Source of the DNA: Acidimicrobiia bacterium
GTDB taxonomy: Bacteria; Actinomycetota; Acidimicrobiia; Spongiisociales; ZC4RG35
NCBI GenBank assembly: GCA_012270885.1
Contig: JAAXHN010000035.1
Coordinates: 1-45,235, forward strand
Reading direction: 5' to 3'
Length of the DNA: 45,235 nt
The notes under the pieces are model-generated. The model made no database searches and was not told the DNA's origin. It saw only the letters and a program-made list of their open reading frames with translations. Below are positions 1 through 7,984 of the stretch, piece after piece. Every line of letters starts with the position of its first letter. Positions within the stretch are counted from its first letter, which is position 1. A program made the translations under genes and the position numbers.

Positions 1-374
1 CCTCCACGATCTGGGGGGAAGCCCAGACATAACATCAGCACTCATTGAGGCCTCCTGGATAGGTGACTAAGCACCACCAATTCCAGCGAGGCCTCAACCC
101 CTAACCAAGGACCTCAACCTCCCCCCTCCCCACAAAAACGCGAAGCCTCACCTTTCATAACGCCGACCGGAACATCTCTCTACCAAAGACTCATCACGAT
201 CCATTCCTTGTCGTTCAGCTCTCCAGTTTTACCACTTGCGCATTGCCGACCTGGGCGGGACGACTCGGGACACAGGTAAGGACGACAATCCGGCAGTGCT
301 GTCCGGCCAATCTGTGTTGGGCTACTCTTCGCTGACGATGCACGATTCGACACCCAAGAGACTCAGTTTCTGAA
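1..374. other. Left-edge non-coding stretch
   Basis: No convincing gene is seen before the helicase start at 375. The only open frame, on the minus strand at 215-415, is short, overlaps the helicase start and resembles nothing. The stretch is visibly less GC-rich than the housekeeping part of the window. No clear promoter or Shine-Dalgarno is visible ahead of the ATG at 375, so the helicase may be leaderless or poorly expressed. Confidence 0.5.
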
Positions 375-2132
375 ATGCCCGAAACCCCCAAAGACCTGCA
401 GCTGATCAGGGCCAAGTACCCAGGGTCTTGTCAGTCCTGTGAACGGTCACTCAGCAAGAAGTGGAGGGTGTACTGGTCGCGGTCTGAACGGAAGATTTGG
501 TGTTATCACTGCGGGCGGCCCGAGAAAAGTACCGATCTACCTCCCGGGAAACGGCCACCACTCCCCAAACCTTCCCGGGTGACCACGAGACGGAAAACCA
601 AAGAGCCCGGGCCAAACCAAGAGAGGTGGGAACAACTCTGTGGCTACCTAGGGGATTGCGTTAGAGCAGAGGCCGCCGACACACTGGCGGAACTCCGCCT
701 ACGTAACGACGAATGGTTTCTTCATCTGGGCGTAACCGAGCTGCTTGTCACCGGAAAGGCTGACTCCGTCCCCATACCCAAGGAACTCGCCCGACTCGCC
801 CGCCGCCGACAGCAACCGGATCCCCCGATGTCGGTCCTTTACGGTTGGCCTACGCTGGTCGCTCCTGACACGAAAAACCGACTTAGGGTTGCGCCCTTGT
901 TTGTCCTGCAAGTTGAGGTGGATACCCAAAAAGGGGAACTGCTGGCCGATTCCGAACCGGAGTTCAATGTGGGTGTCACCGCGGGTCAACTATTCAATCC
1001 CTCGGTTTATGAAGAAATAAGAAACATTGTGGGAGACGGCGTGCCATTCGGAGACCGCCCTTCTTTAATGATTCTCGCTGCCAGGATCAGTGATGCGCTT
1101 CCAGTTGAGATCTGCTCCGAGTTGGACCCTGACAAGCTGCAACCGCGCCTAGGTAGGCATCCGGGAATGTACAACGCGGCTATCTGTATTGCCTCCGAGA
1201 ACTCGCTCCACTACGTTGTCTCCTTGCTGAAGGAACTTGAGAGCCTGGCAAAACGCACCGACTGGAAAGACACGGCCGCGGCCTGCTTGCTCGGCATGAG
1301 TGGCCGGCGCTCAGCGGGTAAGAGACTCTCCACCCAGCCGCTCGCCGCTCCTCTGGTGACCAACCATTCGCAAGAGACGGCTCTTGAGCCCATGAGAACC
1401 CAACCTCTTACCGTGATAAAGGGACCGCCTGGCACGGGGAAAACCCAGTTGGTGGCCAATGCGGTGAGCAATGCCTGGCTTGATCGGGAGACAATCCTGG
1501 TCACATCAACCAACAACACCGCTGTGGACGTGGCTGTAGATCGCACCAACCGCGATATATGCCGAGGGGTGCTGTTCCGCACCGGGAAAAGAGAGGTGCG
1601 CGAGAACCTCAAGGAAACCGTTTTGGAGGCGACTGCGGAGGCTGGTCTGGTGCGGTTTTCTGAGAAGAGGGCCAAGCGGCGCCTCGCCCGGGCACATGCT
1701 CAACGCTCTGTCCTCCTGGAGAACCTGGAACGACAGACAAGGATCCGCAAGGACTTACTCGAAGTGGTCGAACACTTGGAGAAGATCGCCCTTGCCATTT
1801 GGGGACGTTCTCGATCTCCTGAAATCCTGCTTAGTCTCCACGTTCTTGCTCACCGGGCAGACCGTCTCCAGAAGGTGTGGTTTTTCCGTCGCCGACGTAC
1901 CAGGCGCTTGCTCCGGAAGATCGGTTCTACCAATGCGGAGGTCACTTTGAACAAGGTGAAGTCCTGGGTTACCTACGAAGCTAAACGTCTGCGGCTGATG
2001 AGGAAGTTGGACCTATTGGCGGTGACATCGGCTGTCCCGAAGAAGCAGTTAGAAGGGTCGACACAGTGTGGGCCGAAGCGAGCCGGGAAGCGGTCCAAGC
2101 CGTTGTGGCATCAAAGTTGCGCCCTGAAGTGA
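375..2132 (+). CDS. SF1 (UPF1/DNA2-like) helicase, N-terminal half, broken by a frameshift
   Basis: This is the N-terminal half of a superfamily-1 helicase of the AAA_11/AAA_12 (UPF1/DNA2-like) type. Residues 19-46 hold a four-cysteine knuckle (CQSC ... CYHC), probably a zinc finger. A region of about 300 residues of unknown fold follows. The Walker A motif GPPGTGKT lies at 350-357, followed by the Ia-like stretch ILVTSTNNTAVDVAV. The frame should continue into the entry at 2066-3487, which carries Walker B and the later motifs; instead it runs out of frame and stops at 2132. The natural join is near 2036-2045, where '..LLAVTSAVP' would lead into '..EEAVRRVDTVWAEA' after restoring one base. 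No slippery heptamer is visible, so I infer a one-base deletion or a sequencing error. Without motif II this half cannot hydrolyse ATP. Confidence 0.8.
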   Translation: MPETPKDLQLIRAKYPGSCQSCERSLSKKWRVYWSRSERKIWCYHCGRPEKSTDLPPGKRPPLPKPSRVTTRRKTKEPGPNQERWEQLCGYLGDCVRAEAADTLAELRLRNDEWFLHLGVTELLVTGKADSVPIPKELARLARRRQQPDPPMSVLYGWPTLVAPDTKNRLRVAPLFVLQVEVDTQKGELLADSEPEFNVGVTAGQLFNPSVYEEIRNIVGDGVPFGDRPSLMILAARISDALPVEICSELDPDKLQPRLGRHPGMYNAAICIASENSLHYVVSLLKELESLAKRTDWKDTAAACLLGMSGRRSAGKRLSTQPLAAPLVTNHSQETALEPMRTQPLTVIKGPPGTGKTQLVANAVSNAWLDRETILVTSTNNTAVDVAVDRTNRDICRGVLFRTGKREVRENLKETVLEATAEAGLVRFSEKRAKRRLARAHAQRSVLLENLERQTRIRKDLLEVVEHLEKIALAIWGRSRSPEILLSLHVLAHRADRLQKVWFFRRRRTRRLLRKIGSTNAEVTLNKVKSWVTYEAKRLRLMRKLDLLAVTSAVPKKQLEGSTQCGPKRAGKRSKPLWHQSCALK

Positions 2133-3487
2133 CGAACCTCCTTCGTGGAGTAGCCAGCAGGTCCAAGGTGTTCAAGCGCGGCATCCGAGATGTGATGAAA
2201 CACGCCTCCGGCTGGGCATGCACCGCCCTGTCAATGGGCCAAAACTTCACGCTGAAACCGGGCTTGTTTGATCTCGTCGTCATCGACGAAGCCAGCCAGT
2301 GCTCACTGGCCCAAGCATTGCCCCTAGCCTACCGGGCCAAACGACTCGCGGTCGTGGGCGATCCCAACCAGTTGACCCCGATCGACAACCTGCTTCCGAA
2401 GGTTCACGACAGAATAGCCGATCACGCCGGGCTGGATACAGAAGAACTCGACCGACAAGGCATACACCACCGCAAGGGATCGGCCTACCTGGCCTTCGAG
2501 CACCAAGCACGGCGGCTGGATCAACTACAGCCCATCCTTTTGAACGAGCACTACCGATGCCTACCGGAGATCGCCCGATGGTTCAACCGCGAGTTCTACG
2601 ACGATCAGCTCACGGTGCTGACCAACCTGGAGCGCCACACCGGCGCTGGATTGACACCAAACGGGAGGCAGGCGGCTGTCTTGTGGAAAGCCGTCGAGGG
2701 GCGCGCCACCAAGGGCCCACGGGGCAGTTGGGTGAATCAAGAGGAAGCAAAGCAAGCCGTGCAGGAGGCAACCAGATATGTGTCACGCGGGAACCTTACA
2801 GTTGGGGTGGTCACACCCTTCAGGGAGCAGGTACAACTCGTCAAGCGGCTGGCCGGTCGGCACCTCAAGAGGTCCATGGAGAACGACCAGTTCAGATGCG
2901 GAACGGCGCACGGATTCCAAGGCGACGAGCGCGACGTGATGATTTTCTCGACGGTTGTAGCACCCGGCATCGGATCCTATGCCGCCGACTGGATAGAGAG
3001 AGAACGGAACCTACTGAACGTCGCCGCCAGCCGCGCCCGCGCATTGCTGATCGTGTTGGGACACCCGGACATAGAACAGTTCGGGAGCTCAACACTGGTA
3101 TCGTTGCGTCGCTACGCCATTGAAGAACTCAACACAGACCGGAGGGTCGACCTTGAGGGCCTACACAGAACCGACAGCAGACCGGAGCAACTGCTGTTGG
3201 ATGCTATGAGGAAAGCAAGGCTCGACCCGGTAGCCAAACTCAACCACTCGGGCTACGAACTTGACTTCGCCATTTTTGATCAGGATGTCCATTTGAACAT
3301 CGAAGTAGACGGAGACCAACATCTCGACGCTAGAGGCCAGCAGCGGCGCCAGGACATCACCCGAGATCGGGTGCTGACCCGCGCCGGTTGGAAAGTCATA
3401 CGAATCTCTGCATGGCGATGTGTCTGGGATACCGACGGCGCCGTGCAAACAATAAAAGAGGCTCTGCAGGAATATGCGATTGATTAG
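2066..3487 (+). CDS. SF1 helicase C-terminal half with Vsr/DUF559-like nuclease domain
   Basis: This continues the helicase begun at 375. The frame is open from about 1985, and GTG 2066 is only the first start codon, so it is probably not an independent gene. Visible motifs are Walker B VVIDEAS (71-77), motif III VVGDPNQLTP (96-105), motif V GTAHGFQGDERD (279-290) and motif VI LLNVAASRAR (316-325). After about residue 370 comes a PD-(D/E)xK nuclease fold resembling Vsr/DUF559 endonucleases, with ELDFAI (398-403), IEVDGDQH (412-419) and a downstream GWKVIRISAW. The architecture is therefore zinc knuckle, SF1 helicase, nuclease. This combination is common in phage-defence and DNA-processing proteins. 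A PLD-family gene follows after about 200 bp on the same strand. Function as defence is inference. The split makes the whole 375-3487 locus a probable pseudogene unless the frameshift is artefactual. Confidence 0.8.
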   Translation: MWAEASREAVQAVVASKLRPEVTNLLRGVASRSKVFKRGIRDVMKHASGWACTALSMGQNFTLKPGLFDLVVIDEASQCSLAQALPLAYRAKRLAVVGDPNQLTPIDNLLPKVHDRIADHAGLDTEELDRQGIHHRKGSAYLAFEHQARRLDQLQPILLNEHYRCLPEIARWFNREFYDDQLTVLTNLERHTGAGLTPNGRQAAVLWKAVEGRATKGPRGSWVNQEEAKQAVQEATRYVSRGNLTVGVVTPFREQVQLVKRLAGRHLKRSMENDQFRCGTAHGFQGDERDVMIFSTVVAPGIGSYAADWIERERNLLNVAASRARALLIVLGHPDIEQFGSSTLVSLRRYAIEELNTDRRVDLEGLHRTDSRPEQLLLDAMRKARLDPVAKLNHSGYELDFAIFDQDVHLNIEVDGDQHLDARGQQRRQDITRDRVLTRAGWKVIRISAWRCVWDTDGAVQTIKEALQEYAID

Positions 3488-3693
3488 GTCTTGTCGCAAA
3501 CCGAGGGCCGCCCAATACCCACTTCCCCAAACACAGTACCTCGCCGCGACGCCATATTGTAGACAGCCCTCAGAGCCTGACGGTAGTGCGCTGTTCCAAC
3601 CCGTGCAGGGTGGGAGGGAAGGAGACCTGACGGTGGCCCGCTGTAATATGGAGTCGGTGATGAGTATCGACACTGCTAGGCGGGAGGCGAGGG

Positions 3694-4368
3694 TTGGTTG
3701 AATTCCTTACGACTACCGGGGTGTCCCACCACCTTGAGGAGTTGATAAAACAGAGCAACGAACGCCTGGTGCTTATCAGCCCCTTCCTACGCCTCAGCAC
3801 GCGGATGCGAGAACTTCTCGAAGACAAGAACAGGATGAAGATTGATATCCGTGTTGTCTACGGAAAAAGCGAACTGAGGCCTGATGAAAACAATTGGCTG
3901 GAGAGCATGACATCGATCAGGACGAGCTTCTGCTCTAACTTGCACGCCAAGTGCTACATGAGCGAACAAGCGGCATTGCTCACATCCATGAACCTATACG
4001 AGTTTTCTCAAGTCAACAATCACGAGATGGGCGTGCTGGTCGACAGGAGTCAATCGGAGGATCTCTACAGGAAGATCTACGACGAGGCGATGCGCATTAT
4101 CCGTTTAAGCGACGAGATTCGGGTCAAGGTTGCCCGGGTACCGAAAGAGCCCGTCGGGCATGCCCCACCCGACACGACCCCCACCTGTCCGAAGTGCAAC
4201 AAGATAATGGTGACTCGCACAGCCAAAAAAGGGGACAAGAAGGGCGAAACCTTTTGGGGGTGCAGCACCTACCCCACGTGCTGGGGCACGAGGCCTCACG
4301 AAGCTGCTCCGGTTGCCCCAAAACCCCCGCGGCGACGGCGATCCCGCTCCCGTCGGAATCGTTCTTAG
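3694..4368 (+). CDS. Phospholipase D-like protein with topoisomerase-type zinc finger
   Basis: A 224-residue protein of the PLD superfamily, possibly a nuclease. A single HKD-like motif, HAKCYMSE...TSMN, lies near residues 87-103; the canonical Asp is Glu and the usual GS is TS. The stretch after it, NLYEFSQVNNHEMGV, is typical of PLD-like proteins linked to DNA metabolism. Residues about 162-193 form a C4 zinc ribbon of the topoisomerase I type (CPKC ... CSTYPTC), which suggests nucleic-acid binding. The tail is very basic, rich in Arg and Pro. One HKD per chain implies a dimeric active site. The start is TTG 3694, supported by GGGAGG upstream and an in-frame stop at 3661. It lies 206 bp after the helicase-nuclease and probably works with it. 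Confidence 0.75.
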   Translation: MVEFLTTTGVSHHLEELIKQSNERLVLISPFLRLSTRMRELLEDKNRMKIDIRVVYGKSELRPDENNWLESMTSIRTSFCSNLHAKCYMSEQAALLTSMNLYEFSQVNNHEMGVLVDRSQSEDLYRKIYDEAMRIIRLSDEIRVKVARVPKEPVGHAPPDTTPTCPKCNKIMVTRTAKKGDKKGETFWGCSTYPTCWGTRPHEAAPVAPKPPRRRRSRSRRNRS

Positions 4369-4543
4369 CGAGCATGACCGAGTTCGGGGGTCTCGCACCC
4401 AAAATGCAGGACTCCTCAGCCCGCAGGTTTGAACACAAAAGCCAGATGTCTAACCAGAAGCCCTAGCGTCTTGCTTCCCTACCCAAGGTCGTATCGGTTG
4501 CGGGCATGGTTACTCTGGAAATCTAACCGAGGAAGGAGATGCC

Positions 4544-4960
4544 ATGAAGCAATCGGAGAATATCACCATCAGTGCTTCCCCGGAAAGAGTTTGGAGGGCT
4601 TTGACCGATCTGGAGGATCGGGTCAGATGGAATAACCGTCTGCACGAGATGTCGGTGATAGGTGGTGGTGAGTTGGCGCTGGGGAGCCGGATGCGGATAA
4701 AGGTGGACAGAAGCAGATTCAAGGTAACCGTCACGGAGTTCAGCCCCCCGTCCCGAATGGTCTCGGGAGCCAAGAACCCTGTGATGAGCTACTTCCACGC
4801 TTACCACATCTCCGAGGTGTCCGAAGGGGTCACGGAGTTGACCCTGACCGGCAGCATGGGAGGTCCGCTCGGCGCGGTGATGGGCCTCTTCTCCAAGAAC
4901 CGCATGCAGCAGGACCTTCGGGACGAATTGGCGCCCATCAAAGACGCCGCCGAAGCGTAG
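4544..4960 (+). CDS. SRPBCC (START/polyketide cyclase-like) family protein
   Basis: A 138-residue SRPBCC-fold protein. The opening ENITISASPERVWRALTD is the hallmark first strand and helix of this family, and the C-terminal helix RMQQDLRDELAPIKDAA closes the hydrophobic pocket. Members bind small hydrophobic ligands or act as cyclases or toxins; the ligand here cannot be read from the sequence. The start at ATG 4544 is set by a strong AGGAAGGAG just upstream. It is transcribed alone after the PLD gene (175 bp gap) and before a gene-poor stretch. Confidence 0.8.
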   Translation: MKQSENITISASPERVWRALTDLEDRVRWNNRLHEMSVIGGGELALGSRMRIKVDRSRFKVTVTEFSPPSRMVSGAKNPVMSYFHAYHISEVSEGVTELTLTGSMGGPLGAVMGLFSKNRMQQDLRDELAPIKDAAEA

Positions 4961-5306: not shown

Positions 5307-5459
5307 CTATTTGTTGAGTTGTCTTCGATCGGAGCCGTCGACGTTCACGACCCAGATACCCTTCGAAGAATACGACGGTCCGCCACTATAGGTGATGCGG
5401 GCACCGTCCGGTGACCAAGCCGGAGCATAGGAGAACCTACTGGTTTCCGTTCCCGCCAT
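5307..5459 (-). pseudogene. Remnant of a TolB/PD40-type beta-propeller protein
   Basis: Reading the minus strand from an ATG at 5459 gives 50 residues ending in TAG at 5307. They contain a full PD40 (WD40-like, TolB family) signature: SYAPAWSPDGARITY, then GIWVVNVDGSDRRQLN. This matches a single blade of a propeller that normally has six or more blades, so the gene is a 3' fragment. It overlaps the last codons of the SLH-CAP gene in another frame; the two lie on the same strand. I infer that recombination joined the SLH-CAP gene to the tail of a former propeller gene. It is probably not functional. Confidence 0.6.
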
Positions 5460-7443
5460 CGATAAGGCATGTGGCGTACTGGTAGGGGGTTTGAGCCGTG
5501 CCGCCCAAGCTCACGTTGGTGACGGTGATTTTGTAGCAATCGAGTTCAGAGAAGGTTGGTACCTCACCGGAGTTCTTGTCGCCGTACACCGCCCACACCA
5601 CAGCCGGACCTCCGTAATTAGAGTTCCTGTCGATGACCTCGACCGGTATGGGCCCCTGGTTGTTTGAGACCGTGACAGTCGCTTCGCTGAAGTCCGCCCC
5701 CGGTAGCTGGAACGACCAGCGGCCCCATACGACTTCTGCCGGTACGTAGCCGGCGGGAGGCCACGCTACAAAACCACGTTGCTCTCGTATATCGACTTGG
5801 CGCCGTGCTTCTCCCAACACGTATAAAGCGTTTGTGGCGTAGGAGGGAATGTTGCCGGTACCGATCACTCCCAGCGGCGGGTACAGGATCCAGCGACGAT
5901 GGCCAACAGGATAGTTGGCGCCGCCGCTGTCTCGCATGTAAAAGTCGATACCGTCGGTCCCCATCTTTCCTAGGGCGAGGTTGCTTTTCGCGGCGCCTGA
6001 CCGGCCGGTTCCGGTGTAGCAAATCCAGTCGCTTCCCGGTCTGTGTGACAGGGCTCTCTGAGCTGACATCATTAGTGCGGCATGTTGGGCGGCCGTTGTG
6101 TAATCCGGTCGTTCGGTGACGGTGTAAAGGCCTGCCATCTGCCGGTACCAGTTGACCCGTTGCACCACGCTGTCCCGGAAAGCCTGGCTGGTGGTCCCCG
6201 CCTCGCAGGAGGCGACGCTGCCTGTGAACTCGATGTCGGGTTTTTCTCTTTGGAACTCCGTCAGATAGGCGTCTACGACCGCGTCCCGGTCCCAGGTGTC
6301 CAAACCCGGACCGGGATGGCAGCCGCCATGTTCGAGAGTCCTCACCAACAGTCCGGAGGGCAGGTTCGGGTTGTCCTCGACATCATGTGCTACCCCCTCC
6401 GCTATTCGCACCACGACCGTGCCTTCGGCTGCTGGGACGATTGTCATTTCATAGTCGGATCCGGAACCGGTCAGACCGGTGGCCTTACCATTGACCACGT
6501 CCACACCGCCTATACCGAAGCCGGTCACCGCCCGAGCAAAGGAGACCGCCACGTTGAAGGAACCGGTCACCGCCCGCGACGTGGCTGAGTCGATCGTCAC
6601 AGAAAACGGATCACCAGCAGGGGCCATCCCACCCGTCGTTGTAGTGGTGTCCGCAGGTGCGTCACCATTCTCTTTGGTGGTATCCGGAAGTGGGTCACCA
6701 TTCTCTTTGGTGGTATCCAGAAGTGGGTCACCATTCTCTTTGGTGGTATCCGGAAGTGGGTCACCGTATTCGGCGCGGTATAGGAATGTGGCCATCTGCC
6801 CTCGGGTTGTGTCGTCGCCGGGACAAAACCTGGACCCGTCACCGCATCCCTTGGTAATCCCCGACCCCGCCAGGCGAGCCACCTCCTCCGCATACCACGT
6901 GTCAGCAGGCACATCCACGAAACCAGGGTCCGGGGCAGCAGGAAGTACATAGGCGCGGGAGATGAACGCCGCCATCTGAGCACGGGTCACATGATCATCA
7001 GGACAAAACACAGATCCGTCACCACATCCCCTGGTTACCCCCAACTCGGCCATCCGCTCGATGAACGGCGCATGAAAACCATCCGCGTCCACATCCTCGA
7101 ACCTCGACCCGGAAACCGACGGTGGGTCCTCATAGTCAAGAATCCGGACCACCCACACCGCCATCGTCTTGCGATCGATGGCCTCGTCGGGGCAGAACCC
7201 GGCTACACAACCCGTCCCGTCGAACACTCCGGCTTGCTCCAGTTCAATGACCGGGGTCGTGTAATAGACACCATCGGGCACATCATCAAAGCCGGCCGAC
7301 TGGGCCCCCGCCGGAGACCCCACCATGGCCAACACCAACACCACCACCAAAACCCACGAACCGCCACGGCGGGGGCTCTCCCCTTGCCCGCAAGAAGGCC
7401 CCGAGATGACACCCCCCCGGCCGGGCACTCGCAATGGCTTCAT
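5437..7443 (-). CDS. Secreted SLH-domain protein with Ig-like and CAP domains
   Basis: The chosen start is ATG 7443 (668 residues), because GAAGGGAC sits just upstream and a signal peptide follows (hydrophobic WVLVVVLVLAMVG, cleavage near AGA-QS). An extra 16 codons are possible. Three S-layer-homology repeats follow, each with a C.xGFCPD/GCGDGSxFCP..xxTRxQMA signature, which would bind the protein to the cell wall. Next come an 11-residue repeat linker (GDPLPDTTKEN, see repeat entry), a bacterial Ig-like domain (SGSFNVAVSFARAVTGFGI ... VVVRIAEGVAHDVEDN) and a C-terminal CAP/SCP domain (VNWYRQMAGL ... AAQHAALMMSAQRALSH ... GHRRWILYPP). CAP domains act in extracellular binding or proteolysis; the role here is unknown. 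The gene stands alone and faces away from the acyl-CoA ligase. Confidence 0.85.
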   Translation of the reverse strand: MKPLRVPGRGGVISGPSCGQGESPRRGGSWVLVVVLVLAMVGSPAGAQSAGFDDVPDGVYYTTPVIELEQAGVFDGTGCVAGFCPDEAIDRKTMAVWVVRILDYEDPPSVSGSRFEDVDADGFHAPFIERMAELGVTRGCGDGSVFCPDDHVTRAQMAAFISRAYVLPAAPDPGFVDVPADTWYAEEVARLAGSGITKGCGDGSRFCPGDDTTRGQMATFLYRAEYGDPLPDTTKENGDPLLDTTKENGDPLPDTTKENGDAPADTTTTTGGMAPAGDPFSVTIDSATSRAVTGSFNVAVSFARAVTGFGIGGVDVVNGKATGLTGSGSDYEMTIVPAAEGTVVVRIAEGVAHDVEDNPNLPSGLLVRTLEHGGCHPGPGLDTWDRDAVVDAYLTEFQREKPDIEFTGSVASCEAGTTSQAFRDSVVQRVNWYRQMAGLYTVTERPDYTTAAQHAALMMSAQRALSHRPGSDWICYTGTGRSGAAKSNLALGKMGTDGIDFYMRDSGGANYPVGHRRWILYPPLGVIGTGNIPSYATNALYVLGEARRQVDIREQRGFVAWPPAGYVPAEVVWGRWSFQLPGADFSEATVTVSNNQGPIPVEVIDRNSNYGGPAVVWAVYGDKNSGEVPTFSELDCYKITVTNVSLGGTAQTPYQYATCLIDGGNGNQ
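6661..6771 (-). repeat. 33-bp tandem repeat inside the SLH-CAP gene
   Basis: Three head-to-tail 33-bp copies lie at 6661-6693, 6694-6726 and 6727-6759, with one base difference (6719), followed by a partial copy to about 6771. They encode the 11-residue linker unit GDPLPDTTKEN between the SLH repeats and the Ig-like domain. The near-identity of the copies implies recent expansion, so copy number may differ between strains and change the reach of the surface domain. Confidence 0.9.
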
Positions 7444-7984
7444 ACCAAAAGTCCCTTCAGATTCACACCAAACCGATAACCGATCCGACAATAATAGGGT
7501 CCGTTGATTTTGAGCGGTTGCTCAGGCACGTCGTACAGGATCACGTCCCGGCGCAGTTTCCAGTCTTTTGGAACCGGGTCCTTATCATGAGTCAACTTGA
7601 TGGGAAAGGGACGATTGCAGTACAGCCCGGAGACTGTCTCGTCGGCCACATATCGGTCGGCAAAGGGCGATTGTTCGACTCGAAACCAACTCAATCGGAC
7701 AGTATCGAACAACTTGCCATTAAGTGCTTGCCACCGGTCATCTTCGCCTTCACCTGAATAAGCGATTCATAGTAACATAGTAACAACGTAAAGCCACAGA
7801 TGGGAGACCATCAGCTGAGCAAGCGCTCCGAACTCTTACCGATAGCAACTGGCAGCCTCTCTCCCCTAGCCTTGATTCCGTAGGTCGGTTGATCATCGGA
7901 GAGAAGATGCCTCAGTAATCGTACGCAATCGAGACCTCGGTCAAGCCGCTCGGGAGGCTACTCCCCTGCGTTAGCCTATGAGCT
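7444..7984. other. Divergent intergenic region between SLH-CAP and acyl-CoA ligase
   Basis: About 540 bp with no convincing gene. It must hold the promoters of two divergent genes. Overlapping open frames occur on both strands (7434-7757 plus, 7440-7712 minus) but resemble nothing, and both reach into the SLH-CAP gene start. The region is AT-richer than its surroundings. TAGCCT at 7972-7977, seven bases before the ligase ATG, could be a -10 for a leaderless transcript; no good -35 is seen. Confidence 0.4.

Follow-up and report, generated by a model that had tools for sequence, protein, structure and literature searches.

A frameshifted SF1 helicase–nuclease gene and an adjacent PLD-family gene in an Acidimicrobiia bacterium: probable chance neighbours in an accessory region

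Introduction

The left end of a 45,235-nucleotide contig of an Acidimicrobiia bacterium (C132 of a 2.6-Mb genome; the whole stretch is referred to here as the window) carries a gene for a helicase joined to a nuclease and, shortly after it, a gene for a phospholipase D (PLD)-type protein. A preliminary description, made from the sequence alone, proposed that the two form a defence module, which raises the question of whether these genes belong together or have simply come to lie side by side. Both proteins belong to known kinds. The helicase-bearing contig of a same-genus genome (G002) is identical to MPNA01000010 of ‘bacterium OM1 bin76’, a member of the OM1 clade of the Acidimicrobiia from a study of the sponge Aplysina aerophoba (PMC5649159), and the bacterium of the window is itself marine and probably sponge-associated. 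Sponge symbionts are reported in that study to be enriched in restriction-modification and toxin-antitoxin genes (PMC5649159).

Organization of the locus

The helicase, encoded at window positions 375–3487 and spread over two open reading frames (ORFs), is of the SF1 (Upf1/Sen1-like) kind; it carries a CxxC zinc motif in its N-terminal part and a nuclease of the Vsr/DUF559 type at its C terminus. The locus is composed of the following features:

375–2132, + strand: N-terminal part of the helicase, with a CxxC...CxxC zinc motif, a conserved stretch that has no name in Pfam and AAA_11 with Walker A; a frameshift leads to an early stop
1980–2060, + strand: zone of frame loss relative to the intact same-genus copy (L009:4671-7817), with a one-base length difference in the alignment
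2066–3487, + strand: C-terminal part of the helicase, with the second part of AAA_11, AAA_12 and an MTES_1575/DUF559 nuclease (Vsr-type PD-(D/E)xK)
3488–3693, + strand: intergenic gap of 206 bp, of which the relative's PLD locus matches only the last ~14 bp (ribosome-binding site)
3694–4368, + strand: PLD-family protein of 224 aa, with a single HKD motif, Zn_ribbon_Top1 and a basic C-terminal tail

The genome of G002 harbours an uninterrupted helicase of 1048 aa, which shares 83% DNA identity with the window over positions 322–3480 and, at the protein level, 75–76% and 84% identity with the N- and C-terminal ORFs, respectively. As this copy is uninterrupted, the split ORFs represent one helicase gene with a one-base frameshift rather than two genes. 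A programmed frameshift was also considered and rejected, as the same-genus copy reads straight through. The dN/dS ratios against the relative (0.25 for the N-terminal part and 0.18 for the C-terminal part, which lies beyond the frameshift), together with that of the PLD gene against its closest copy (0.18), point to purifying selection on both helicase halves and on the PLD protein. Given selection on both halves, the frameshift is either recent or an error of assembly and, unless the latter applies, the helicase of the window is probably inactive. The PLD ORF begins with a TTG codon preceded, about 9 nt upstream, by a GGAGG.

The lower GC content ascribed to this region in the preliminary description was confirmed, with values of 0.55–0.60 at the two genes versus 0.61–0.68 in most of the window; GC3 is similarly reduced (0.64–0.69 versus 0.76–0.83 for genes further right), and both figures are consistent with acquired DNA. 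Scans for sigma-70 promoters and terminators across positions 200–4600 gave no excess over shuffled sequence and are uninformative as to an operon. To the right of the PLD gene lie genes for SRPBCC and SLH/CAP proteins. One of the latter (5437–7491, − strand) is of a secreted type and combines SLH repeats with a Big_12 and a CAP domain; it also contains several short ‘GDPLPDTTKEN’-like repeats. Near the contig start, positions 40–160 hold a repetitive intergenic element; related copies occur at three other sites in the genome, and the same-genus relative has about six.

The helicase–nuclease and its relatives

The fusion of a helicase to a PD-(D/E)xK nuclease that was originally read from the sequence is supported by Pfam, with matches to AAA_11 in each half (4e-11 and 1.5e-9), AAA_12 (1.2e-28), MTES_1575 (2.3e-12) and DUF559 (4.4e-8), and by motifs, as GPPGTGKT, DEASQ, GDPNQL and NVAASRA of the helicase and EVDG of the nuclease are all found, distributed over both ORFs. 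The closest solved structures are those of Sen1 and Upf1. Residues 1–330 are covered by no Pfam domain, and this N-terminal half is undescribed. It is conserved in the three full-length homologues, which have the zinc cysteines in common; C33, C36 and C60, numbered as in the uninterrupted copy, do not vary among these three, and the N-terminal zinc cysteines are retained in most copies of the helicase. An AlphaFold model of the intact protein, built on only three aligned rows, had a mean pLDDT of 32 and was unusable.

Searches for the helicase covered 138 genomes of the order, 395 of the class and 396 of the phylum, these sets being overlapping. Close-range matches occurred in only 2 of the 138 genomes of the order, and the genomes sampled yielded three full-length homologues outside the window, namely that of G002 and two from the same class (G059 and G100; 41% identity). 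A scan of GTDB contigs returned the same-genus copy as its sole match, and one of viral contigs returned none. In G059 the helicase gene lies directly after BrxHI (914 bits) and near PglZ (656 bits) and BrxC/PglY (BrxC, 996 bits), with a DruE-like gene on its other side, while in G100 the homologue is found near an integrase. More distant relatives adjoin BrxL (936 bits) and PglZ in G501, and DruE-like and DpdE genes in G130. These BREX and Dpd/Druantia-like surroundings make a defence role plausible for the helicase by itself; judged by neighbourhood alone, with G059 as the only close-range case, such a role is reasonable.

Several of these neighbourhoods hold features of their own. The G059 locus (L035:3-17929) combines a BREX-type cluster (BrxC/PglY, PglZ, BrxHI), a helicase–Vsr homologue and a DruE-like gene, such that two types of defence are apparently intermixed. 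Beside the integrase of G100, a gene on the + strand (L036:12705-14618), divergent in orientation from that of the helicase homologue, encodes a 637-aa protein with no Pfam or PADLOC match. The distant relative in G609, another genome of the phylum, is a fusion of a caspase domain (PF00656) to an SF1 Upf1-like helicase (L124:8150-11791, − strand; 1213 aa) and is a possible defence effector. The intact same-genus helicase gene is immediately followed by a remnant of an IS3-like transposase, named by eye (L009:3895-4536), which may have rearranged that locus.

Given that the helicase core is closest to Upf1 and Sen1, the protein could alternatively be a house-cleaning helicase of RNA surveillance or repair with no part in defence. 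We regard this as unlikely, as it is present in so few genomes of the order, is fused to a Vsr-type nuclease and has homologues in BREX loci or near an integrase, all of which are traits of an accessory gene. Another alternative is that the locus is the remnant of a larger defence island, of BREX or another type, that has been cut by the end of the contig, with the helicase as an accessory component. One of the nearest full-length homologues from beyond the genus does lie within a BREX cluster, GC content is low, and position 1 of the window is where the contig starts. Only 374 bp precede the helicase, and further members of an island could have been lost with the absent left flank. However, no other defence gene was recognized to the right of the PLD gene, and inspection by eye of the ORFs in 16 kb around the intact same-genus copy revealed no BREX gene. 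We therefore consider an island remnant to be quite improbable.

The PLD protein and its exchangeable tails

The downstream protein was likewise correctly described from the sequence as a PLD protein with a single HKD motif and a zinc ribbon of the topoisomerase type, encoded on the same strand 206 bp further on. Pfam assigns it PLDc_2 (9e-8) and Zn_ribbon_Top1 (3.4e-9), and residues 1–183 match PHROG 9329 (phrog_9329; 3.9e-68), a very common family without an assigned function. Its single HKD motif (HAK...E...TSMN) is invariant in homologues. AlphaFold modelled residues 1–147 well, except for 101–105, and a Foldseek search with this model ranked the endonucleases Nuc of Salmonella and NucT of Helicobacter first (E about 2e-7; TM to target 0.64–0.68). 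The window protein has the predicted fold and the single HKD motif in common with these two enzymes, but sequence identity is only about 11–13% and the zinc ribbon is an addition.

Relatives in PHROG 9329, on plasmids and in Vibrio filamentous phages share the same single-HKD domain, with 45–63% identity in the better matches, and the window protein differs from them only at its C terminus, where the module is variable across the family. A Top1 zinc ribbon is found on the window protein, on two same-genus copies and on an Aeromonas copy (57% identity); a double-CxxC ribbon takes its place in G330 and in the second PLD copy of the window genome, and the copies of Vibrio phages have a non-zinc tail. 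The C-terminal modules are thus exchangeable on one PLD domain.

Members of the family were found in 620 plasmid records, under the name ‘phospholipase D family protein’; of these plasmids, 577 are predicted to be conjugative. They also occur in 65 viral contigs and in seven records of Vibrio phages, which are filamentous. Inspection of several of the viral contigs revealed Zot-like filamentous-phage genes (named by eye). The second PLD gene of the window genome lies between uvrB-like and amidohydrolase-like genes (names again by eye). The family is accordingly an accessory gene that has spread over conjugative plasmids and filamentous phages without the helicase. In loci from Aeromonas (L129:6001-7459) and Pandoraea (L110:6001-7344), a gene for a NERD-domain nuclease directly follows the PLD homologue. 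NERD was considered as a conserved partner of the family, but the arrangement is clear in these two loci only and forms no general rule.

Do the two genes travel together?

A functional module would be expected to recur. G002 is the sole same-genus genome with both genes, and there the helicase is on contig 42, while two PLD copies are on contigs 2 and 33. The homology blocks at 322–3480 and 3680–4374 of the window thus match two different contigs of this relative, and the join between the genes is not conserved. A further 77 PLD loci were available, of which 5 are chromosomal, 7 come from PLSDB records and 65 from phage contigs. The helicase is absent from the surroundings of them all (0/77), although most of the viral loci belong to Vibrio inoviruses that hardly differ from one another, and fewer than 77 loci are thus independent. 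A helicase-family profile gave no match in the neighbourhoods of the 65 viral and 6 plasmid loci, nor in those of the 5 other chromosomal loci and the Aeromonas locus. It also gave none in the whole records of 26 PLD loci, a weak result obtained without a positive control. Conversely, a PLD profile found no member around 20 other loci of the helicase family (0/20), some of which end at contig edges.

The pair was not encountered a second time. The two genes are therefore best regarded as having come together by chance in an accessory region, not as a two-gene defence system, and the module put forward in the preliminary description, for which homologues that never occur together had been named as the refuting observation, is not upheld. 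The proposed defence role remains plausible for the helicase by itself, through its BREX and Dpd/Druantia-like neighbours, but not for the pair. With good confidence, we interpret the locus as two independently mobile or acquired nuclease genes that have become neighbours in an accessory stretch of lower GC. Close homologues of the helicase are few (three outside the window), and the two genes may on rare occasions co-occur elsewhere; the transposase remnant behind the relative's helicase could also mark an event that parted an original pair.

Comparison with known defence systems

The system most similar to the pair is Mokosh, in that both combine a helicase core of the SF1 Upf1-like type with a PLD nuclease domain. 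A study of Hachiman (PMC10925250) groups Hhe, MkoA and MkoC, all of them defence helicases, under SF1_Upf1. The core of the window helicase, with Sen1 and Upf1 as its closest structures, matches the PADLOC models of MkoC (5e-52) and MkoA (1.6e-37), while the PLD protein matches MkoB (4e-9). These matches, the common strand and the 206-bp spacing would suit a Mokosh-like module in which the helicase recognizes and unwinds foreign nucleic acid that the PLD protein then cuts in trans, and the MkoC model, which joins helicase and PLD regions in one chain, indicates that such a combination is known in use. However, the conserved pairing of MkoA and MkoB in type I has no counterpart in the PLD and helicase-family loci surveyed, and this distribution largely refutes the proposal. 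The PLD protein matches MkoB over 133 residues only (positions 307–443 of a 610-position model) and scores no better for it than for DrmC (34 versus 32 bits). Unlike the single-chain MkoC of type II, the window has separate ORFs, and its helicase already ends in a Vsr-type nuclease of its own, has a zinc motif and shows no detectable kinase. Moreover, the helicase is broken in the window while the PLD gene is intact. Taken together, we judge a Mokosh-like module to be very improbable. DISARM fares no better, as the PLD protein reaches 30 bits for DrmC against a cut-off of 133 and no drmA, drmB or other DISARM gene is among the neighbours.

Hhe, ProA and PDC-S37 of PADLOC resemble the window helicase in being large proteins that join an SF1 helicase to a Vsr/MTES-type region at the C terminus. 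The C-terminal ORF matches the ProA model over residues 55–469 (4e-30; helicase and nuclease region), PDC-S37 over 68–461 (8.8e-27) and Hhe over 63–457 (2.2e-16), although its scores lie far below the NCBIfam cut-offs for Hhe (58.5 versus 2000) and ProA (104 versus 1500). The window helicase has about half to two thirds of the length of these proteins and differs in its N-terminal half, which consists of the zinc motif and the unnamed domain; the N-terminal DUF4011 of Hhe has no Pfam match in either window half or in the three full-length homologues. Nothing was found in the literature on a helicase–Vsr architecture with DUF4011, nor on BREX with DUF559. Among BREX loci with accessory helicases, the 41%-identical homologue of G059 sits inside a BrxC/PglY-PglZ-BrxHI cluster; in the window no core gene was recognized to the right of the pair, and the left flank lies off the contig. 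The helicase is most probably a protein of defence islands whose build resembles that of Hhe and ProA.

Implications

If the two proteins are considered separately, the helicase would translocate on foreign DNA or RNA and cut it with its C-terminal PD-(D/E)xK domain, either by itself or as an accessory to BREX and similar islands. The PLD protein, by similarity of fold, would be a stand-alone minimal nuclease of the Nuc/NucT kind, dimeric and metal-independent, aimed by a replaceable C-terminal module that is here a topoisomerase-type zinc ribbon. On plasmids, in filamentous phages and in chromosomal accessory regions, it probably cuts or processes DNA during the competition or entry of mobile elements. 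A more specific model can be offered tentatively, in which the helicase represents a small, unnamed defence family that can act alone and has been recruited as an accessory into BREX loci, and the PLD protein is one of a broad set of inter-element nucleases that change target by exchanging the C-terminal module.

The analysis removes a plausible but unsupported candidate for a two-gene defence system. In its place stand two narrower leads, namely a BREX-associated helicase–nuclease with an undescribed N-terminal half and a common PLD family, PHROG 9329, with exchangeable tails.
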